Origin: Methanomicrobiales archaeon | GTDB taxonomy: Archaea > Halobacteriota > Methanomicrobia > Methanomicrobiales > Methanospirillaceae | NCBI GenBank assembly: GCA_025358115.1 | Contig: JANYKQ010000022.1 | Location: 1-37,622, forward strand | DNA: 37,622 bases | Direction of reading: 5' to 3' | Shown here: positions 12,795-22,598 of the stretch, piece by piece | Numbering within the stretch: the first letter of the stretch is position 1 | How the letters are laid out: each line of letters opens with the position of its first letter | The notes under the pieces: model-generated | Told to the model about the DNA's origin: nothing | What the model saw: the letters and a program-made list of their open reading frames with translations, nothing else | Database searches by the model: none | Translations under genes and position numbers: made by a program

Positions 12795-13574
12795 TCAAAT
12801 CTCCTTAGCCAGCGTTTCAAAAAACTCCTCATTCGCATACCGCTCAATCCACGGCCGGTGACCGCACTTCTTCAAAAGGATAAACCTGAAATCCGAAAGT
12901 TCCCGGGTGAGCGGGTCTTTAACTCCTTCAGCCGGATGGGGATCGTAATCCCCGTGGATCGCTACAACCGGACATTTGATGGAATGTGCCATCCGGAGAA
13001 GGATCAGGCTCCGCCGCTGTTCAGCGGCCTCATCCCACACACCCTTAAAAATATCATACTGGCAGTGAAATGCCTCATTCTCCAGCGTGATGGGATCGAA
13101 TGCATCCGCGTGTGCCAGGAGACATCCCAGTCTCCCTAAGAGTGCATCCTTGTTCGGGGTTGAAGGATTGTCGATCTGGCCGAGCAGTGCCTGCGCTTCA
13201 GCACGTTCAGCTGCTTTGAGCCGGTCCAGCCGGGTCTTGGTGACCGATGCTGCATAGTGCTCTTCGAACGGGGGGCTGCTGACCAGGATCAGCTTGCTGA
13301 CCAGGGCAGGATACCGTGCTGTAAGCATCCACGAGAGAAATGCCCCCCAGGAAAAACCAATGAGGGTTACCGGTACCTTACCATGATCTGCCAGAACAGA
13401 GCGAAGCTCCTGGATCTGCCCTTCAAGGGTGGTCTCGGTCTGGAAGGGTTCAAGCATACATTTTACCTGGGAAAGGTCCCGTGCCACGTGTGCCACCTCA
13501 CCCGGAGCTCCCGGCCCCCCGTGAATGATGGCAACCGGATAGGGTCCCGGTCCCCATTGACGTACCGGTCTCAT
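12795..13574 (-). CDS. Alpha/beta hydrolase
   Basis: 259-aa alpha/beta-hydrolase-fold protein. The oxyanion motif HGGPG (residues 19-23) is followed by the nucleophile elbow GFSWGA with the catalytic Ser, the acid in HGDYDPHP, and the catalytic His in KKCGHRPW near the C-terminus; the triad is complete. HGGPG is common in proline-iminopeptidase-like members, but the substrate cannot be assigned. A TATA box about 28 nt before the ATG predicts a leaderless transcript. It is a single gene bounded upstream by the hydrogenase-like operon and downstream by the 1.7-kb gene-poor region. Confidence 0.85.
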   Translation of the reverse strand: MRPVRQWGPGPYPVAIIHGGPGAPGEVAHVARDLSQVKCMLEPFQTETTLEGQIQELRSVLADHGKVPVTLIGFSWGAFLSWMLTARYPALVSKLILVSSPPFEEHYAASVTKTRLDRLKAAERAEAQALLGQIDNPSTPNKDALLGRLGCLLAHADAFDPITLENEAFHCQYDIFKGVWDEAAEQRRSLILLRMAHSIKCPVVAIHGDYDPHPAEGVKDPLTRELSDFRFILLKKCGHRPWIERYANEEFFETLAKEI

Positions 13575-13650: not shown

Positions 13651-14166
13651 TTATTTCTTACGGGCCTTCTTCATCAGGGCAAGCAGCCCGGCGAGGATCC
13701 GGGTGGGCGTGGGAGGATTGCCCGTAATCTTCAGGTCCACCGGAAAAATCTTATCTGCACCGCCAAGAACGGCATAGGTTCCGGCAAAAATCCCGCCGGT
13801 GCAGGCATCATCCCCCACCGCAACTACAAATTTGGGTGACGGCATGGCATCGTAGGTCTTTTTAGCCGCAATCGCCATGTTGTGCGTCACGGCTCCTGTC
13901 ACCATCAGGAGATCCGCATGACGGGGTGAAGCGACAAACGTGATACCGAACCGTTCCACATCGTAAAAGGGGTTGTTGAGATTATTGATCTCAATCTCCG
14001 TGGCATTGTCACTGCCGGTATCCAGTTCGCGAATAGCGAGGCTCCGGCCAAAGACAGCATCGATCGCAGTCTTGATCTCGCGGCCGATTGCCTCGACTTC
14101 ATCATCCCGGACCGGCGCCTCTTCAGTCACTTTCTTTTTTAAGAGACAGGTTAATGCGTTTACCAT
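13651..14166 (-). CDS. NuoB/HyfI-like small subunit lacking cluster cysteines
   Basis: 171-aa homologue of the small subunit of complex I and group 4 hydrogenases, which normally holds the [4Fe-4S] cluster next to the active site. The fold signatures remain (ELDTGSDNATEIEINNLNNP, VTGAVTHNM, VVAVGDDACTGGIF, ITGNPPTP). All four ligand positions have changed: GSCNGCE has become GSDNATE (Asp53, Thr56), GDC has become GDD (Asp120), and GCPP has become GNPP (Asn150). One nearby Cys (122) is not at a ligand position. The ATG at 14166 is preferred over one at 14196 because GTGAGG sits about 10 nt before it and it avoids a 20-nt overlap. It is the last gene of a six-gene operon. Confidence 0.85.
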   Translation of the reverse strand: MVNALTCLLKKKVTEEAPVRDDEVEAIGREIKTAIDAVFGRSLAIRELDTGSDNATEIEINNLNNPFYDVERFGITFVASPRHADLLMVTGAVTHNMAIAAKKTYDAMPSPKFVVAVGDDACTGGIFAGTYAVLGGADKIFPVDLKITGNPPTPTRILAGLLALMKKARKK

Positions 14167-14176
14167 TTTCTTTGCC

Positions 14177-15757
14177 TCACAGGTCCGTCCCCGCATACGA
14201 GAGGTTCAGGCTCTTGTTGATCACCGGGAAATCCGGGACAATATTGCCCTGCACCGCATGTTCAATCGCCAGCCATGTGCAGAACGATGCGGTCCGGACC
14301 TTGTACCGCTCAATGACACCATCTTTGATCCAGACCCAGCAGAGATTCTGGCCACGGGCAGATTCAACCATCGCAAGCGTGTACCCGTCGCGAATCGGGG
14401 CATCAGACCTGACATCGCCCTCCGGTATTGCGGCAACCAGCCGTTCTATCAGGTCAAGCGAGTCCATGATCTCCGATGCCTTTATCGTAAACCGGGAGAG
14501 CACATCACCATCCCGGAGCCGTTGCGGTTTCGGGGCAAACTGGTCGTAGATGCCGTACGGGTGATTCTGCCGGACATCGACTTTCCCGCCCGATGCCCGT
14601 GCGGCCGGCCCGGTGATATTGAGCGGGCGGAGCAGTGCCGGGCGAATCACGCCGGTGGTAGCCAGACGGTCAATCACGGATGCCGTGGAAAGAACGATCT
14701 TCAGGCCAATCCGGTACCGCTTCCGCAGCTGCCGGGCGAACTCGGCAAGTTCATCAACCGACACTTTGGGAATGTCCCGGTTCAAACCCCCGGGACATAC
14801 CATCCCCCGCAGGAACCGCGACCCGGTCAAACGGTCATTCTCGCGGAAGCATTCCTCGCGCAGCACCGAGAACTGGTTGGCTCCCAGCGGGTACGCAACA
14901 TCCACCAGCATCCCGGCCTGATCACCAAGATGCGAGCAGATGCGTTCCAGCTCAAGGAGAATCGTTCGCAGGTACCATGCCCGTGCGGGTACCGGTATCT
15001 GCGATAGCTTCTCAACGGCCATGCAGAACGCGGTTGTATTCGCAACGGATTCATCGCCACTCACCGCTTCGGCAATCCTCACGCATTCCTGCGGTGACTT
15101 CCCCTCCGCAAGTTTCTCGATGCCCCTATGCTTGTAGAACATCCGGATCTCGAGATTGAAGATCGTCTCACCGATCACGCTGAACCGGAAATGACCGGGT
15201 TCAATGATCCCTGCATGCACCGGGCCGACCGGTACCTGGTACACACCCTCCCCGCTCACTTCCCGGAACGGATACTCATCAGCAGGATCAATCGCATCCT
15301 TTGTAAGGACGGGTGCATTCTTAAATGCTTTTTTCAGCGGGTGGAAACCCTCCGGATAGGTCTCATGCAGGAAGAGGCGCCGGGTATCAAATGCCCCGGC
15401 AAATTCCACGCCGAAGCCGTCACAGCATTCACGTTCAAACCAGGATGCGGCGGGATAGATGCCGGCAATGGATGTAGCAGACCCGTTGACACCCCGGACC
15501 AGAACCAGGATGCTGCTCCTCCGCTCAAACACGTAAAAGAGCGTCTGCGCAGCATTCTCCGTGAAACCTTCGCAGCAGAAGAGGCTGATGAGAACGAACT
15601 TGTTTGCAGCCAGGTGCTCTACAGCCGATTCAAATTCCGGCTCTTCGATGCGCACGTAATGCTCATGATTGGGACCGGCACGGATCCGGTCTGCCAGGGC
15701 AGATGGGCCAAGAAATTCCTCTGCCGCCCGGATTCCGATATCATTCTCAGCAGTCAT
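14177..15757 (-). CDS. NuoCD/HyfG-like large subunit lacking Ni-binding cysteines
   Basis: 526-aa fusion of a NuoC-like domain (about 1-145, with the FHPLKKAF boundary) and a NuoD/hydrogenase-large-subunit domain (about 175-526, GPVHAGIIEPGHFRF). In [NiFe] hydrogenases two CxxC pairs hold nickel. Here the first site reads SGDE (Ser233, Glu236) and the C-terminal DPCxxC site reads NLSYAG (Ser520, Gly523), so no NiFe centre can form. This is the hallmark of energy-converting-hydrogenase-related (Ehr) proteins and of complex I NuoD. The start abuts the preceding gene. The quinone-binding residues of real complex I cannot be judged by eye. Confidence 0.88.
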   Translation of the reverse strand: MTAENDIGIRAAEEFLGPSALADRIRAGPNHEHYVRIEEPEFESAVEHLAANKFVLISLFCCEGFTENAAQTLFYVFERRSSILVLVRGVNGSATSIAGIYPAASWFERECCDGFGVEFAGAFDTRRLFLHETYPEGFHPLKKAFKNAPVLTKDAIDPADEYPFREVSGEGVYQVPVGPVHAGIIEPGHFRFSVIGETIFNLEIRMFYKHRGIEKLAEGKSPQECVRIAEAVSGDESVANTTAFCMAVEKLSQIPVPARAWYLRTILLELERICSHLGDQAGMLVDVAYPLGANQFSVLREECFRENDRLTGSRFLRGMVCPGGLNRDIPKVSVDELAEFARQLRKRYRIGLKIVLSTASVIDRLATTGVIRPALLRPLNITGPAARASGGKVDVRQNHPYGIYDQFAPKPQRLRDGDVLSRFTIKASEIMDSLDLIERLVAAIPEGDVRSDAPIRDGYTLAMVESARGQNLCWVWIKDGVIERYKVRTASFCTWLAIEHAVQGNIVPDFPVINKSLNLSYAGTDL

Positions 15758-17239
15758 TTAGAACTTCAGCTCCGTTACAATCTGGTTGAGGAACTCCATG
15801 CCATGTGCAGGGAATACGATCCCGATAACGAGGAGGAGTGCCAGCAGGAAGATGATGGGGGCCTTCATGCTCGCGGGTGTCCGGTAGGGTTCGATATCCG
15901 GGGGAGTATCCGGTTCAGAGACCTGCGTAAAGTTCGTAAGCACAAAATATCCCAGTCCCCCGGCAGCAATGAACAGCAGGACGAGCATGACGCCAACCGC
16001 CCATAAAGAGACGGTTCCCAGCTGCAGCATGATGAAGAATTCGGTGAAGAAGATGGGAAACGGGGGCATTCCGATGATCGCAAGCCCCCCGATAATAATT
16101 CCCCACGCGGCAAGGGGCTGGAGCCGGAAGACATCCCTGATATCATCGGCTGCATCGCTCGAGAAACGGCTCCGGTACTGCCGGTGCAGAATCCCGGAAG
16201 AGAAGAACAGGGATGCCTTTGTTATGGAATGCGCCATGATATGAAAGAGCACCCAGAACAAGGCTACCGGCGTAGATATGGCAAGACCTACCAGAATTAT
16301 TCCCATGTTCTCCACGCTCGAGAATGCCACCAGTTTTTTTAAGTTTTTCTGGGGAAGCATGGAGAAGGCGGCAATGCCAATCGTCAGGAGCCCGAACAGT
16401 GCGAGAAGCGGTGCAATGGTAGCAAGGGCGGTTGTCTGGTGCACAAGCGCATACACGCGGATGATCCCGTAAATGCCCACGTTCAGCAGGACCCCCGAGA
16501 GAATGGCACTGACCGCGGACGGCGCTTTGGCATGGGCTTCGGGCAGCCAGGTATGGAACGGGAAGATACCGGATTTTGCCGCAAATCCTATGAAAACAAG
16601 CACGAAGGACGCGATCATCATGCCCGGCGGGAAAGTAGCGGCATGCTCCATAAGAACGGTCCAGTTTAAGGTACCTGTGCCAAGACGGACCCGGGAGGTC
16701 TCGAAGAGAAAGATGAACCCGACAAAGGCAAAGAGCATGGAGACCGAGGCTATGAAAATATACTTGATTGCTGCATCGATGTTGTCCCGGGCTGCCAGAA
16801 TGGCAATGAGCATCGCAGAGATTACCGTGGTCAGCTCGGCAAAGATCCAGAAGAGTGCAAGATTATCCGAGAAGAACGCAAGAACGATAACCAGGAGGAG
16901 CAGGGCCCATGCCATGTAGAAGAGCTTGAGACTGCCCTTCTCCAGTTCCCCGCTCTCTAGGAGACCTTCGACATACCCCCGGGCATAGATCGCGGCACAG
17001 GTAAAAATGACCGTGGCAATGAGCACCTCAAAAAGACCAAGGTGATCGATAAAGAAGTACTGGCTGCCAACAAGAAACGAGACAACCGGTACCTGCTCGA
17101 AGAGCGCGATCCAGGTTGCCAGTACAGCATATATCAGTGCCTGCAGGATACAGACGGTATTCATCTGGCGGTGGTTGTGGGTGGCTGCGATAATGATAAG
17201 CGAGATGACTGATACCATCACGAATGCGATCAGGATCAT
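15758..17239 (-). CDS. HyfF/NuoM-N-like antiporter subunit
   Basis: 493-aa membrane protein of the NuoL/M/N (Mrp-antiporter) family with about 13-14 hydrophobic segments. It carries the conserved channel motif FPFHTWLPEAHAKAPSAVSA, the Lys-containing VAFSSVENMGIILVG segment, and helices with buried His/Lys/Glu (HIMAHSITKASLFF) that form the ion path in relatives. Gene order places it as the HyfF equivalent. AGGAGGTTCC precedes the ATG, and the start overlaps the previous stop by 4 nt (ATGA), so translation is coupled. Confidence 0.88.
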   Translation of the reverse strand: MILIAFVMVSVISLIIIAATHNHRQMNTVCILQALIYAVLATWIALFEQVPVVSFLVGSQYFFIDHLGLFEVLIATVIFTCAAIYARGYVEGLLESGELEKGSLKLFYMAWALLLLVIVLAFFSDNLALFWIFAELTTVISAMLIAILAARDNIDAAIKYIFIASVSMLFAFVGFIFLFETSRVRLGTGTLNWTVLMEHAATFPPGMMIASFVLVFIGFAAKSGIFPFHTWLPEAHAKAPSAVSAILSGVLLNVGIYGIIRVYALVHQTTALATIAPLLALFGLLTIGIAAFSMLPQKNLKKLVAFSSVENMGIILVGLAISTPVALFWVLFHIMAHSITKASLFFSSGILHRQYRSRFSSDAADDIRDVFRLQPLAAWGIIIGGLAIIGMPPFPIFFTEFFIMLQLGTVSLWAVGVMLVLLFIAAGGLGYFVLTNFTQVSEPDTPPDIEPYRTPASMKAPIIFLLALLLVIGIVFPAHGMEFLNQIVTELKF

Positions 17240-17919
17240 GGAACCTCCTCCGGCTCATCCAGGAGATGGAAACGGTGCAGACGCTTGTGGTAATCCTCGA
17301 GGGTCGAGTCGATACCAACCGATAATATGGTTGTCAGGATTACGAGAATGATCAGGTCGATGATGATCAAAAACTCGATGATGAACGGGAGTTCGGTCAC
17401 GAACATACCAAAGAGAAGTACCCCGTTTTCCATGGAGAGGAAACCCAGTACTTTTGTGATTGTCCGCTTCCGGGAAAACGTCACCATCATGCCCATGAGC
17501 ATCAGCGATATTCCCAGCACCGCGCCAAAGAAGAACAGGCTGTCCCTTCCCGGAATAATCCTTCCGAGCGCCATGTAGATGACCAGCATGAGGGCCATAG
17601 ACAGAATCAGGGAAGTGGTAGGGCTCAGGAAATGGAACTCGATATCGCGCTTGATCCGGATCTTTTCCTGGATGGTTGCAATAAAGTACGGGATGATGAT
17701 CACCTTGCTGACAAACGTAACTACTGCGATCTCCAGGAGCACTATCGATCCTTCCAGCGACCAGAGCGCAAGGGCGATACCGATAAGGGTGAGACTCTGG
17801 AGGGAATAGACGGAGACCACCGAGAGCAGGTTTCGCGTTGAGATGATATACGCGGCAGTGATGATGATACAGACAAACAGGATTCTTATGATCCCTTCGA
17901 TAGTGGCCTGTTCTATCAC
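17236..17919 (-). CDS. HyfE/NuoK-like membrane subunit
   Basis: 227-aa hydrophobic protein with about 6-7 membrane helices matching the HyfE/NuoK-like subunit of hydrogenase-4-type complexes. FLSMENGVLLFGMFV, with a membrane-buried Glu, is the NuoK-type signature. The start is GTG at 17919, within a GTGA overlap with the preceding stop, and has GAGGTG as ribosome site. The C-terminus is hydrophilic (DYHKRLHRFHLLDEPEE). Confidence 0.83.
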   Translation of the reverse strand: MIEQATIEGIIRILFVCIIITAAYIISTRNLLSVVSVYSLQSLTLIGIALALWSLEGSIVLLEIAVVTFVSKVIIIPYFIATIQEKIRIKRDIEFHFLSPTTSLILSMALMLVIYMALGRIIPGRDSLFFFGAVLGISLMLMGMMVTFSRKRTITKVLGFLSMENGVLLFGMFVTELPFIIEFLIIIDLIILVILTTILSVGIDSTLEDYHKRLHRFHLLDEPEEVP

Positions 17920-18857
17920 GAGAACACCTCAATGATAATGATCAGGGTCGAGAAGAAGAATGCCATGGCAAAGAGACTGGGAAGCTGGAAGAAGCGTTTC
18001 TTGGCCATAGATGATTCAAAAAGCCCGATTATTCCGGCCAGGATCGAACCTTTTACTACAAATAAAAACACTGCGATAAGAATCCCGGCAAGGGTGAGAG
18101 CAGAGATAAGCCCGAACGGGACTATCAGGTTGATGAGGAGCGCCATAAGGACTGTCATCTTGACGGCAGCGGAGAGTTCCATGAGGGCCAGGTTCCTGCC
18201 CGATTGTTCAAGGATCATCCCTTCATGGATCATTGTCAGTTCAAGATGTGTCTCCGGGTTATCGACCGGTATCCGCGAGGTCTCCACGACTATGATGATG
18301 AACAGCGAGATCGCGATCAGGATCAGTGTTGAAGGGGAAGGCGAACCGGTCGATACGGAGATGGCAAACATGTCAAAAATATTGAGGGTCTTAAAGACGA
18401 ATGCAAGGGCCGCAAAAACGATGATGGTCGTAGGTTCGATGATTGACGAGATACTCATCTCCCGCGAACTGCCCATACCCCCAAAGGAACTTCCGGCATC
18501 CAGGCCGGCAAGCGCCATAAAGAAGCGGGCCAGTGCGAGAAGGTACAAAAAGAGGATGATGTTGCCGATTCCCCCGACGGTTTCGGGTACAAAGACCAGC
18601 GGGACAAAGAGTGCGGCAACGAGGATTGAAGCCATTGTAACCAGGGGAGTGACCCGCATGATACGCGAGGAGTTGGGTGAGTAGATGACCTCTTTTTTCA
18701 GCAGTTTTACCAGGGTAAAGTAAGTCTGGAAGATGGAGGGACCCTGCCGTCCCTGCGTCCAGGCCTTGACTTTTTTTATCAGGCTGACAAAGAGGGGCGA
18801 AACGGTAATGACAACGATTGTATTGATTACCAGGTACAGGAAGAAATCTAGGTTCAT
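17916..18857 (-). CDS. HyfC/NuoH-like membrane subunit
   Basis: 313-aa membrane subunit of the NuoH family, which in relatives links the soluble arm to the ion-pumping arm. Family features are the cytoplasmic loop RQGPSIFQTYFTLVKLLKKE and the acidic ETHLELTMIHEG loop. About eight hydrophobic helices are seen. The ATG at 18857 is chosen because it overlaps the preceding stop (ATGA) and follows GGGTGG; a GTG three codons upstream is the alternative. Confidence 0.88.
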   Translation of the reverse strand: MNLDFFLYLVINTIVVITVSPLFVSLIKKVKAWTQGRQGPSIFQTYFTLVKLLKKEVIYSPNSSRIMRVTPLVTMASILVAALFVPLVFVPETVGGIGNIILFLYLLALARFFMALAGLDAGSSFGGMGSSREMSISSIIEPTTIIVFAALAFVFKTLNIFDMFAISVSTGSPSPSTLILIAISLFIIIVVETSRIPVDNPETHLELTMIHEGMILEQSGRNLALMELSAAVKMTVLMALLINLIVPFGLISALTLAGILIAVFLFVVKGSILAGIIGLFESSMAKKRFFQLPSLFAMAFFFSTLIIIIEVFS

Positions 18858-20797
18858 GCAAACCACCCGAGGAAGACTATCAGGGCAATGACCGTGATGA
18901 AGACATAGAGAAGATACGTGTCAAGACACCCGTTCTGGAAGCGGGAAATACGTCCGGCAAGGTACAGGGACTGCTGTGCTAAGGGGTTGTAAAGATATTC
19001 CTCAAAGACTTTCAGGAGCCGGATCTCTCCTTTACCCTTTTCGAATATGCAGTTTTTCTGGTCAAAGAACGTCCGTTCATTGGTTGTCCGGGTGCGGTAG
19101 ATGGCAGAGAAGATGATATCGAGAGGTTCTGAGAACCCGTGACCACTGTATTCTGCGGATGCCTGCTGCGAGAGTGTCCCGCACCCCCAGGTTTCGCTCA
19201 CCCGCACCTCGCGGGAAGCAGTGAAATACAGGAGAGCATAGGTAAGAGCTGCCATTCCCATGAGGAGGAGGCTGACCAGCAGCATATCCGGCAGGGGAAC
19301 GGAAAAACCCACGATGGCAAAGATCTGGATGGCGCATACTCCCAGAAAAATGCAGGCCGCCGCAAGGATACCCGGCCCGATCAGCATTGCACGGGGAACT
19401 TCACGGGCAGCGGCACACTCCGGAGAACGCGGGAGGGCAAGGAAGATCGATCCGAATGCCTTGACAAAGCATGCTGCTGACAGCGCACTGGTCAGGGCAA
19501 ACAGGGCGAGGCAGATGAAGAGGAGAACCTTGAACAGCGGCTGGACGGCAGCAACCGAAGTAAAGAACGACATGAAGATCAGGAGCTCACTGGCAAACCC
19601 GTTTAAGGGGGGCAACGCAGCAATCGATACTGCACCGATAAAGAAGAGGGCAGACGTGACCGGCATCCGGTGGGCAAGCCCCCCCATGTGTTCGATATCC
19701 CGGGTATGGGTGGCAGTTACCACGGAACCCGCAGTGAGGAAGAGCAGGCTCTTGAACATGGCGTGGTTGAGCGAATGGAAAAGCGCACCCAGCAGGCTGA
19801 GGGTTGCAAGCAGGGGAAGGCTGGTGGCAGTAAAGATCACGGAAAGACCAATGCCCATAAAGATGATCCCGATATTCTCAATGCTCGAATAGGCGAGCAT
19901 ACCCTTGACATCATGCTCTTTTAATGCATAGATGATGCCAAGAACTGCCGATGCAGTACCTGCGGCAAGGATCAGCAGACCCCACCAGAGATCCGGTGTG
20001 AAGACATCCAGCAGGAAACGTACGAGGCCATATACAGCGATCTTGAGCATTACTCCCGACATAAGGGCCGAGATCGGTGACGGGCTTGCCGGGTGTGCAT
20101 AGGGCAGCCATTTGTGGAACGGGATGATGCCGGCCTTGATGGAAAATCCCACAAAAAGAAGGAGAAATGCAACCGTTGCCAGAGGGGCGGACGCTGCTGA
20201 CAAGGGGGAGATGACTAATGAACCGGTCAAAACATAAAGAACGATAATTCCCAGCAGGACAAAGAGTGACGAGAGCTGGGTCATTATAAAATAAAAGATG
20301 CCGGCTTTCCGGGTCTCATCATGGGTATATTCATAGGTCACAAGCAGGAACGAACTGGCAGCCATCAGTTCCCAGAACAGGAAAAATGAGAGGGTGTTTG
20401 CCGAAGCAACCACGAGTACCATGGCAAGGATGAAAAGACTGGTACTGCCGCAGAGCAGGTTCCTGCGGGATTGCCCTTCCATATGTTCAATATATTCGGT
20501 GAAATAGAGGGCAACACACGCCGATACAACTGCAATAATCAGAAGGAAAAAAGAAGCGAGCCGGTCAATAACAAAAGATAGGGAAAACTGGGAGAGAGGT
20601 TGGTAGAGCGCAAAGGAGACCGGTTCTCCGGAGAACAGGGTCAGGAGAGAGAGACCGCACAGCAGAACTGACGCAATAATTATACTGGAGAGCGAAATTG
20701 TCCTGATGGATCTCCGGTCCAGCGATGCTGCCAGGAGAGGAAAGATTGTGCCCGCCAATAGAAACAGAATTACGAGGATGAAAAGTTCAACAATCAT
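18854..20797 (-). CDS. HyfB/NuoL-like antiporter subunit
   Basis: 647-aa NuoL-family membrane protein and first gene of the operon. Antiporter-type motifs include IPFHKWLPYAHPASPSPISA, MLAYSSIENIGIIF and LNHAMFKSLLFL. The C-terminal part (from about residue 525) has the hydrophilic TWGCGT and SGHGFSEPLD segments seen in HyfB/MbhH-like proteins, then a last helix. The ATG at 20797 is preferred over 20842 because CTGGAGCG lies 8 nt before it. A TATA-like TTATCTTATG near 20844-20853 would place the transcript start about 26 nt ahead of the start codon. Confidence 0.87.
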   Translation of the reverse strand: MIVELFILVILFLLAGTIFPLLAASLDRRSIRTISLSSIIIASVLLCGLSLLTLFSGEPVSFALYQPLSQFSLSFVIDRLASFFLLIIAVVSACVALYFTEYIEHMEGQSRRNLLCGSTSLFILAMVLVVASANTLSFFLFWELMAASSFLLVTYEYTHDETRKAGIFYFIMTQLSSLFVLLGIIVLYVLTGSLVISPLSAASAPLATVAFLLLFVGFSIKAGIIPFHKWLPYAHPASPSPISALMSGVMLKIAVYGLVRFLLDVFTPDLWWGLLILAAGTASAVLGIIYALKEHDVKGMLAYSSIENIGIIFMGIGLSVIFTATSLPLLATLSLLGALFHSLNHAMFKSLLFLTAGSVVTATHTRDIEHMGGLAHRMPVTSALFFIGAVSIAALPPLNGFASELLIFMSFFTSVAAVQPLFKVLLFICLALFALTSALSAACFVKAFGSIFLALPRSPECAAAREVPRAMLIGPGILAAACIFLGVCAIQIFAIVGFSVPLPDMLLVSLLLMGMAALTYALLYFTASREVRVSETWGCGTLSQQASAEYSGHGFSEPLDIIFSAIYRTRTTNERTFFDQKNCIFEKGKGEIRLLKVFEEYLYNPLAQQSLYLAGRISRFQNGCLDTYLLYVFITVIALIVFLGWFA

Positions 20798-20843
20798 TTT
20801 TCGCTCCAGACGATCCTGTTCTTGACTGCCCCCGGGGAACACA

Positions 20844-20915: not shown

Positions 20916-21575
20916 TCAGGTATTCTGTTTCACGGGAAGAGCAGCGGGATCCCGTTTCATAGGACAAACATCAATGCCCTTGAGATTTCCCATAACGAAT
21001 CCGAACCGGTCCCGGATGGTTTTTGGCAATTCGCTCTCGGCCATAGGATAGAATCCCAGACTGCCATAGAAATCCACCAGTTCTGTCTTCGAGTGCATAT
21101 AGAGCGTCTCCTGCCTGCCGCACTCTTCTATGAGAAGGACCATAACCGAACGGGCAAACCCGCGGCGCCGGTATTCGTCCAGTACATAAACTGCATCGAC
21201 TTCAAGGCCATCAGGGTGGCGGGAGCAACGTGCCACACCGATCAGTTTCGTACCTGCAAAGGCAGCAAAGAGCCGGTCATTTACCCGGTCCGCAGTCTGC
21301 TGGTGGTAATGGGTCCAGAGCTCACGTTCGGCCCGGACAAGTTCGGCGGGCGAAAGTTCCCGTACTTCCACCGGACCGATAACCTGAACGGGGGAGGCAA
21401 CGGCACCCTGGGAGAATAAGGCTTTACCAATCTCAATAAAAAAATGAGGGCGGAAAGTGACAAATCCTCCACTCTCCACACCGGCAAGCGTATAAAGGGT
21501 AAGGAGCGTCTGGTCCTCACTGAACGGTTCGGGCTCAGCATACGGAGATATAATCGGTATACAGCACCTCCACAA
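20916..21575 (-). CDS. GNAT family N-acetyltransferase
   Basis: The C-terminal ~150 residues have the GNAT acetyl-CoA-binding motif A, VDAVYVLDEYRRRGFARSVM (R-x-x-G-x-A type), and the later DFYGSLGFYPM motif B. The preceding ~65 residues are not recognisable but look coding. The frame has no ATG near its 5' end: the outermost start would be TTG at 21575, with GTG at 21479 or 21371 as alternatives, so the start is unsure. A TATA-like GATTATATC at about 21548-21556 would favour a start downstream of ~21525. The substrate is unknown. Confidence 0.72.
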   Translation of the reverse strand: MWRCCIPIISPYAEPEPFSEDQTLLTLYTLAGVESGGFVTFRPHFFIEIGKALFSQGAVASPVQVIGPVEVRELSPAELVRAERELWTHYHQQTADRVNDRLFAAFAGTKLIGVARCSRHPDGLEVDAVYVLDEYRRRGFARSVMVLLIEECGRQETLYMHSKTELVDFYGSLGFYPMAESELPKTIRDRFGFVMGNLKGIDVCPMKRDPAALPVKQNT

Positions 21576-22016: not shown

Positions 22017-22598
22017 ATGATAGACAAATTATTGCTGGGAAATTTTAAGTTCCGTGAATCTGATTTCACCCCGAATATCGATTACTACCGCGAGCTGGCA
22101 TCCAGCCAGCACCCGACAACGCTCTGGATTGGGTGCTCGGACTCGCGGCTCCAGACGGGGCACATCACCCAGGCACGTGCGGGTGAACTGTTCATCCAGA
22201 GAAATATCGGCAATATCGTGCCCATCCATGACTGGAATTTTGCCACAGTGCTCGAATACGCTGTTGTTCACCTCAAGGTTGAGGATGTGGTCATCTGCGG
22301 ACATTCAAACTGCGGTGCGATCCGGGCACTCGATAAGGAGAGTAATGATTCGTACATTCCCCTCTGGCTGAACAATGCCCGCGATGCGAAAATACGGGTG
22401 GACAAAACGATCGATCCCCCAACAACTGTACTCGAAAAGGATGAGAGGTACCGCCTTATAGAACAGGAGAACGTGAGACTCCAGATCGAACACCTCCATA
22501 CGTACCCCCTGTTGAAAAAAGCAGTTGATGAGAAGAGGATACAGGTTCACGGCCTCTATTACGATCTCGGGAATGGTGCCCTTACACGGGTAACCTGA
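22017..22598 (+). CDS. Beta-class carbonic anhydrase
   Basis: 193-aa zinc enzyme interconverting CO2 and bicarbonate. Zinc ligands are Cys40 (IGCSDSR), His96 and Cys99 (CGHSNCGA); the catalytic dyad is Asp42-Arg44. RNIGNIV is the usual neighbouring motif. The length is typical of prokaryotic beta enzymes. The ATG at 22017 lies 13 nt after AAGGAG. In a CO2-reducing methanogen it would help supply CO2 or bicarbonate. It is convergent with the thioredoxin-like gene, 3 nt away. Confidence 0.94.
   Translation: MIDKLLLGNFKFRESDFTPNIDYYRELASSQHPTTLWIGCSDSRLQTGHITQARAGELFIQRNIGNIVPIHDWNFATVLEYAVVHLKVEDVVICGHSNCGAIRALDKESNDSYIPLWLNNARDAKIRVDKTIDPPTTVLEKDERYRLIEQENVRLQIEHLHTYPLLKKAVDEKRIQVHGLYYDLGNGALTRVT

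Follow-up and report, generated by a model that had tools for sequence, protein, structure and literature searches.

The stretch of DNA analysed here (the window; 37,622 nucleotides, contig JANYKQ010000022.1) is contig 80 of a 2.26-Mb metagenome-assembled genome (MAG; 70% complete) of a Methanomicrobiales archaeon of the family Methanospirillaceae. Positions 13651–20842 of its minus strand hold a six-gene operon of the hyfBCEFGI type, which belongs to the Ehr (energy-converting hydrogenase-related) family. Pfam and NCBIfam placed the six open reading frames (ORFs) as subunits of the complex I/hydrogenase-4 type, the HyfE-like one having no Pfam match. From the 5′ end, these are (i) a HyfB/NuoL-like antiporter subunit of 662 amino acids (18854–20842; Pfam Proton_antipo_M, 4.8e-62; NCBIfam PRK08667, 3e-278 from residue 16), for which an inner start at about 20797 agrees with the family model; (ii) a HyfC/NuoH-like subunit of 316 amino acids (17916–18866; Pfam NADHdh, 1.3e-33); (iii) a HyfE-like membrane subunit of 227 amino acids (17236–17919; NCBIfam PRK11492, 1.1e-16, under the cut-off of the model); (iv) a HyfF/NuoM-like antiporter subunit of 493 amino acids (15758–17239; Pfam, 7.8e-48; NCBIfam PRK08676, 1.5e-205); (v) the large subunit, HyfG/EhrL, of 526 amino acids, with its 30-kDa and 49-kDa domains (14177–15757); and (vi) the small subunit, HyfI/EhrS, of 181 amino acids (13651–14196). 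In the last two proteins, the ligands of the nickel site and of the proximal iron-sulfur cluster, respectively, are replaced.

In an alignment with Escherichia coli HycE, residues S233, E236, S520 and G523 of the large subunit occupy the places of the four nickel-binding cysteines, which bears out the original prediction that both cysteine pairs are replaced. The protein ends directly behind the second nickel motif, without the C-terminal tail that HycE loses by cleavage once nickel has been inserted. In the small subunit, D63, T66, D130 and N160 take the four cysteine places of HycG and HyfI; these are the replaced cluster ligands that had been numbered 53, 56, 120 and 150 from the inner methionine. 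By sequence, the closest solved structures are 7z0s_E for the large subunit (1.1e-92) and 7z0s_G for the small one (2.9e-38). Structure models reached a predicted local distance difference test score of 82 for the large subunit and of 69 for the small subunit, with a poor cluster loop.

When the ligand columns of both soluble subunits were aligned and scored, the losses proved to be fixed across the archaeal relatives. Residues S233, G234, D235, E236, S520 and G523 of the large subunit are invariant in 30/30 aligned orthologs, as are D63 and N160 of the small subunit; in two distant archaeal rows, position 233 of the large subunit is C or G. Among 52 distinct archaeal-type small subunits (sequences with identical last 120 residues were counted once; a few stem from MAGs labelled Chloroflexi or Dehalococcoidales), position 63 is D in 52/52, position 66 is T in 33, A in 17 and P in 2, position 130 is D in 47 and E in 5, and position 160 is N in 51 and D in 1. 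The small subunit of locus L184 has D, A, D and N at the four places. The Asp/Thr/Asp/Asn set first described for the window is thus a fixed feature as regards Asp63, the acid at 130 and Asn/Asp160, while Thr66 is variable. As a rough guide and not as a test, the BLOSUM62-implied frequencies of Cys to Asp, Asn and Glu together amount to 0.09.

A close large-subunit relative (E ≤ 1.1e-83; next match 6.4e-53) was found in 35 of 199 genomes of the order and, within the same search, in 20 of the 28 genomes of the window's genus; a search of the phylum (392 genomes) adds families f8 and f16 as carriers. The ligand replacements are common to dozens of genomes, single-contig ones among them. In five pairwise comparisons with relatives, dN/dS lies between 0.04 and 0.13 for each of the six genes (one value was not computable), and all six are under strong purifying selection. 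Because the replacements recur in dozens of genomes, including single-contig ones, and because selection acts on all six genes, they are not a product of chance. As to the gene set itself, the four membrane genes were found in 38/38 archaeal loci examined, and the six-gene set recurs. In these counts, L039 and L182 are one locus, doubled within the totals of 38, 41 and 43 archaeal loci, and L038 and L116 are one locus, doubled within those of 29 and 43.

The ferredoxin-like subunit HyfH was looked for in the operon and within 1.5 kb of it, and no HyfH-like ORF was found there. Nor was it found at any of 43 archaeal loci (two motif matches are FdhB) or of 23 loci of a second cluster-less set described below. 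The original prediction had counted this absence as part of the loss; the absence from the operon stands, but its reading as a special loss was rejected, since 57 of 63 Ehr loci that keep the cluster are also without a two-motif HyfH and only six have one. Nine further cluster-keeping loci (L048, L055, L075, L077, L087, L091, L099, L109, and L067) have a small subunit with a HyfH-like N-terminal extension that fails the ferredoxin motif, some ferredoxin cysteines being gone; this is perhaps an intermediate stage of the loss of the electron wire. In the rest of the genome, the best HyfH-like match adjoins a canonical Ech-type large subunit in six of nine genomes, that of the window included; in G064 it lies within about 10 kb of an Ech-type large subunit, and the remaining two genomes are G156 and G502.

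The conserved cysteines of the six subunits revealed no alternative cluster site. C132, the sole invariant cysteine of the archaeal small subunit, lies outside the ligand positions, and 16 of the 21 second-set relatives have Ile there. The census of archaeal large subunits gave no invariant cysteine; HyfC, HyfE and HyfF have no cysteine in at least half of the sequences, and HyfB has one that is invariant, C554. The earlier statement that no cofactor is seen holds in this form: the two soluble subunits contain no known redox ligand set, and no cofactor subunit is linked to them.

The membrane arm was compared over 38 archaeal loci, 14 second-set rows and 20 chosen cluster-keeping rows, with E. 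coli NuoL, NuoM, NuoN, NuoH and the Hyf subunits as references. HyfB residues E158, K236, K364 and E419, which align to E144, K229, K342 and K399 of E. coli NuoL, are present in 37–38 of 38 archaeal loci (one HyfB row is short). E135, K159, K222, H337 and K341 of HyfF, E144, D202 and E209 of HyfC, and K72 and E164 of the HyfE-like subunit are each present in 38/38, and these residues of HyfB and HyfC, with E135, K159, K222 and K341 of HyfF, are also kept in 14/14 second-set and 20/20 cluster-keeping loci. Following established knowledge of complex I, we take these HyfB, HyfF and HyfC residues to form the ion path. Intact antiporter motifs had been ascribed to all four membrane subunits; two of them, HyfB and HyfF, carry the antiporter signature, and HyfC and HyfE hold conserved charges of their own instead.

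A second set of 21 more small subunits without the full ligand set was obtained from a contig scan (the best 80 of 584 relatives; its bacterial frequencies are not a census) and from a search of 286 genomes of one phylum of the candidate phyla radiation (CPR), 12 of which had a match. Seven of these sequences have CPR names, seven come from the one CPR phylum, and the rest have other labels or none. Three or four ligands are gone in each, with replacements that resemble the archaeal ones: position 63 is T in 14, D in 5 and S in 2; position 66 is C in 11, E in 7, A in 2 and P in 1; position 130 is D in 15 and G in 6; and position 160 is D in 19, E in 1 and N in 1. Among the 23 second-set loci, L066/L212 and L089/L206 are doubled, the latter pair also within the 22 used for some counts. 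All four small-subunit cysteines are present in the 63 cluster-keeping Ehr loci, a set that is defined by having them; the census of cluster-keepers (n = 68) further includes three other hydrogenase-type rows, as well as HyfI and HycG of E. coli. As judged from the aligned residues, classic Ehr has lost the nickel site and kept the cluster ligands, whereas the archaeal and second sets have lost both, and the Ehr family as a whole appears to show a graded stripping of the electron wire. A cluster-less branch of a known family, conserved and widespread, can on these alignments be regarded as confirmed. In addition, an Ehr-like operon in a genome of a CPR phylum (L211, G685) has D, A, D and N in its small subunit and, like classic operons, follows the order BCFGI; HyfE was not detected there, the small subunit sits on a very long branch, and this may be a further cluster-less line.

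Whether the cluster was lost once or several times is a point on which the trees disagree, and convergence is not claimed. The trees were built without duplicates, without short rows and without L189, L200 and L201, which are canonical hydrogenases; L199 has no usable ORF, and L042 and L051 have partial large subunits. The large-subunit data reject a single cluster-less clade (approximately unbiased [AU] test, p 0.006), whereas the small-subunit data, with the ligand columns removed, do not (p 0.134). The concatenation of the six genes gives a single cluster-less clade with a support of 80; a six-gene tree that joins the archaeal clade with the cluster-keeping L067 is 24 log units better, and the two are not separable (AU 0.8). 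At this locus (L067:7820–10430, from the archaeal MAG FK2.bin78), the large subunit is grouped with those of the cluster-less archaeal clade, but the small subunit retains all four cysteines; single-gene trees differ in its placement.

Two arginines of the large subunit, the first of them a second-sphere residue, were also followed. The Arg of the D-R-x-x-Y motif, presumably R141 of Yarrowia complex I by our own mapping via E. coli NuoCD, is gone in 55/55 archaeal rows (L154 was omitted from these). Because 9 of 64 cluster-keeping rows (ordinary hydrogenases make up three of the 64) have lost it too, its loss is only a weak companion of the loss of the cluster. The Arg of the HRGxE motif (Yarrowia R121) is present in each of the 55 archaeal rows and does not favour either side.

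Around the operon of the window, three genes deserve mention. A beta-carbonic anhydrase (22017–22598, plus strand; Pfam Pro_CA, 1.5e-48) lies upstream and divergent and is a candidate functional neighbour; a GNAT acetyltransferase (20916–21575, minus strand), directly upstream on the same strand, is a candidate accessory gene; and an alpha/beta hydrolase (12795–13574, minus strand), directly downstream on the same strand, is no universal partner. A conserved seventh gene had been considered in the original prediction, and none is universal: in 12 of 29 archaeal loci, hyfB is immediately preceded on its own strand by a relative of the GNAT gene (L129 and L130 being from other families of the order), and a relative of the hydrolase is present in 11 of the 29. 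An accessory role of the GNAT protein is possible. Many Methanoregula loci have in common the GNAT gene, the divergent beta-carbonic anhydrase and the downstream hydrolase. More generally, and with all neighbour counts being lower bounds due to contig ends, 16 of 41 archaeal loci have a carbonic anhydrase close to the operon, with three arrangements among them (Methanoregula, Methanospirillum-type and genus g30); FdhAB is near 5/41 and FocA near 3/41, the family assignments having been checked on examples. An anhydrase is near one of the 63 cluster-keeping loci (L176) and none of the 22 second-set loci. However, 175 of the 199 genomes in the order have carbonic anhydrases, so that the adjacency is a hint only. 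At L176 (2144–19501), a cluster-keeping archaeal Ehr with a fused HyfH–HyfI is found beside FocA, FdhA and carbonic anhydrase, and at L121 (13696–14300), in a single-contig genome, the anhydrase is split into two reading frames while the operon is open.

In the second set (23 loci), the neighbours are of another kind. Three operons (L052, L090 and L110) lie directly behind F-type ATP synthase genes on the same strand, and a fourth (L086) lies about 4 kb behind such genes with three ORFs in between; a fifth locus has one atpC-like match on the opposite strand. F-type ATP synthase genes were found upstream of none of 38 archaeal and none of 63 cluster-keeping loci. The neighbours at the archaeal and second-set loci would be compatible with pH or ion homeostasis, of which they are no proof; for some methanogens they hint at such homeostasis in connection with formate/CO2 metabolism, and for some CPR bacteria in connection with the ATP synthase. 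Two further arrangements were observed. A SulP-family permease gene directly precedes the classic Ehr operons at L071, L073, L074, L096, L105 and L109, in Methylococcales-type genomes and one Terriglobia MAG (the family was checked for L071 only). In a MAG labelled Altiarchaeales (L037:10000–20519), the first operon is followed, a few kb further along the same contig, by a second hyfBCEF set, and no hyfG or hyfI was seen behind it before the end of the locus.

What might such a complex do? Because no redox ligand set and no linked cofactor subunit are present, and ion residues are conserved, the simplest reading is that of an ion machine driven by something other than electrons passing through this arm, as first proposed, with ion movement and its driver as predictions. 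We favour, with confidence evenly divided for and against, a redox-free member of the Ehr branch that acts as a gated translocator of Na+/H+ or related ions. Its membrane arm would exchange cations for protons (Na+/H+ or a similar pair), driven by gradients already present; alternatively, the exchange might be coupled to the binding of a soluble ligand or cation. The soluble pair would gate the NuoH-type connector or act as its sensor, with a putative oxygen-ligand site of Asp63, Asp/Glu130 and Asn/Asp160 in the former place of the cluster; gating may perhaps be exerted by a cation at D63/D130/N160 or by a small ligand in the former nickel cavity. We infer the ion movement, its direction, its driver and the role of the Asp/Asn site. 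We also infer, by analogy, that the complex assembles without a cluster: complex I of Yarrowia without cluster N2 assembles native-like, and cannot reduce quinone (PMC8042128). A wider proposal, which we advance more tentatively, as possible and short of probable, is that of a redox-free lineage of the complex I superfamily in methanogenic archaea and CPR bacteria, in which the N2/proximal site was rebuilt from soft Cys to hard oxygen ligands and an electron-driven pump became a cation- or ligand-gated ion exchanger.

Several observations weigh against the redox-free translocator. The conserved membrane residues are no proof of such a mode, because 20/20 cluster-keeping Ehr keep the same residues. 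The loop of the small subunit at about residues 61–74 was modelled at low confidence, which bears on the geometry of the proposed site, and 11 of the 21 second-set sequences retain one cysteine, at position 66. Neighbours vary by clade: anhydrase and formate dehydrogenase (FDH) genes stand at some Methanomicrobiales loci and ATP synthase genes at a few CPR-type loci, with neither kind at Methanosarcina-type loci. Finally, a cofactor of another kind in the emptied cavities, or an unlinked electron partner, is conceivable from the sequence.

This last point leads to an alternative in which the complex is still redox-driven: the soluble pair would be the docking place of an unlinked partner such as F420-dependent FdhAB, or else the former nickel site would house a flavin or F420, and electron or hydride chemistry there would drive the pump. 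FdhAB near 5 of 41 archaeal loci, L184 among them, and the company of FocA, FdhA and carbonic anhydrase kept by the cluster-keeping L176 would fit such a partnership, and a link between FDH and Ehr has been proposed for other Ehr (PMC6349859; PMC7894505). Yet the remaining 36 loci showed no FDH genes nearby, adjacency is cheap where M. hungatei alone has five Fdh clusters (PMC4704411), and no wire would lead from the partner to the large subunit, given that HyfH and the proximal cluster ligands are both gone; we consider this alternative rather unlikely. The same neighbours can also be read as parts of an inorganic-carbon or formate machine, in which the complex, jointly with the beta-carbonic anhydrase next to it, would couple ion flow to the handling of CO2, HCO3- or formate. 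DAB/MpsAB and the cyanobacterial NDH-1MS would be its models in spirit. In raw counts, the anhydrase near 16/41, FocA near 3 and FdhAB near 5 archaeal loci, against 1/63 in the cluster-keeping and 0/22 in the second set, are in its favour, together with the SulP permease (for sulfate or bicarbonate) before the six classic operons. It is nonetheless quite improbable in our view, for anhydrases are common in the order (175/199 genomes), most arrangements are inherited within a genus, and the operon is far from the anhydrase in several genomes (G085, G093 and G140).

The oxygen-rich site itself might still bind metal and transfer electrons, either as an oxygen-ligated Fe-S cluster or as a mono- or dinuclear centre at Asp63, Asp/Glu130 and Asn/Asp160. 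An oxygen-bearing residue at 63 and 160 in 73/73 of the sequences with lost ligands, and an acid at 130 in 67/73, would suit such a centre, and for the Yarrowia mutant it has been discussed that a mononuclear metal might occupy the vacated N2 site (PMC8042128). On the other hand, no cysteine remains at any ligand position in the archaeal clade, and no partner is visible with which this one remaining centre could exchange electrons. To our knowledge, there is also no precedent for a cluster held without any Cys or His, and we regard a metal site of this kind as highly improbable. That the operon is a decaying remnant without function is barely credible. The loss of every cofactor ligand does resemble early decay, and at one locus (L154, genome G482) the C-terminal part of the large subunit lies out of frame, owing to either a mutation or an assembly error; despite this frame break, decay is rejected by the dN/dS of 0.04–0.13 in all six genes, and the replacement residues are invariant and the four membrane genes present in 38/38 loci.

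If the redox-free translocator is real, no electron would be needed to drive or gate the connector and antiporter arm of complex I. It is a long-standing question for complex I how ion movement in the distant membrane arm is driven by electron transfer at N2. Here, a naturally conserved relative keeps the connector, the soluble pair and an entire membrane arm, minus the cluster ligands; if it moves ions, the coupling elements could be studied with redox chemistry removed.

In the published record, the operon type is familiar. In M. hungatei, the operon Mhun_1817–1822, whose homologs occur in M. acetivorans and M. mazei (Pmh), was described as having a large subunit that apparently lacks the NiFe-centre cysteines (PMC2686161; Anderson et al., 2009), so that the loss of the nickel site, which the original prediction gave as known for Ehr, has been in print since 2009 for this operon type. 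The operon was later named ehrABCDLS and counted among the clusters likely to reduce ferredoxin (PMC4704411), an assignment that the present results call into question, as no known ligand is left for it. Ehr have been described as lacking nickel ligands (PMC4378227; PMC10284858) or Ni- and Fe-coordinating residues (PMC6349859), and as homologs that do not metabolise H2 (PMC5037454). Ehr proteins were detected in Geobacter proteomes (PMC7894505; PMC8691401), and in Methylacidiphilum Ehr is listed as a possible system of pH homeostasis (PMC6688271). The Ehr of CPR bacteria were found to be monophyletic, in a large-subunit tree, and to be without the metal-cofactor cysteines of group 4 enzymes (PMC7304191; Jaffe et al., 2020); the parts of that paper covered here do not mention the small-subunit loss. 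In the portions of the literature covered, no mention was found of a loss of the small-subunit cluster in any Ehr, of which Coppi (2005) and Marreiros (2013) may hold earlier notice; the ligands of this cluster, common to classic Ehr, are not named there as a defining feature.

Set beside these systems, the operon of the window is like Ehr (ehrABCDLS, Mhun_1817–1822; Pmh) in its set of six subunits, in a large subunit without Ni/Fe-coordinating residues and in HyfH being mostly missing, and differs from classic Ehr in the small-subunit [4Fe-4S] ligands, which are of the DTDN/DADN type here and CCCC there. In the CPR Ehr sequences tested, these ligands are lost too (Thr/Asp/Ser, Cys/Glu/Ala/Pro, Asp/Gly and Asp/Glu/Asn at the four places), but the gene order is IBCEFG there and BCEFGI here, and some CPR operons lie behind the F-type ATP synthase. 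Formate hydrogenlyase and hydrogenase-4 (HycE/HycG, HyfG/HyfI) keep the nickel cysteine pairs and the proximal-cluster cysteines and have a ferredoxin subunit, HycF/HyfH, whereas the complex described here has neither the two CxxC pairs in the large subunit nor the polyferredoxin subunit (HyfH/EchF) that mark group 4 [NiFe] hydrogenases (Hyf, Hyc, Ech and Mbh), and lacks the cluster N2 ligands that NuoB has in respiratory complex I and Fpo. The neighbouring anhydrase is an ordinary beta-carbonic anhydrase; in DAB/MpsAB systems, DabA is encoded with a NuoL-like subunit. Mrp-type Na+/H+ antiporters carry out redox-free ion exchange with related antiporter subunits. We know of no soluble large/small pair and no NuoH-type subunit in Mrp antiporters, whereas both are kept in the complex of the window.

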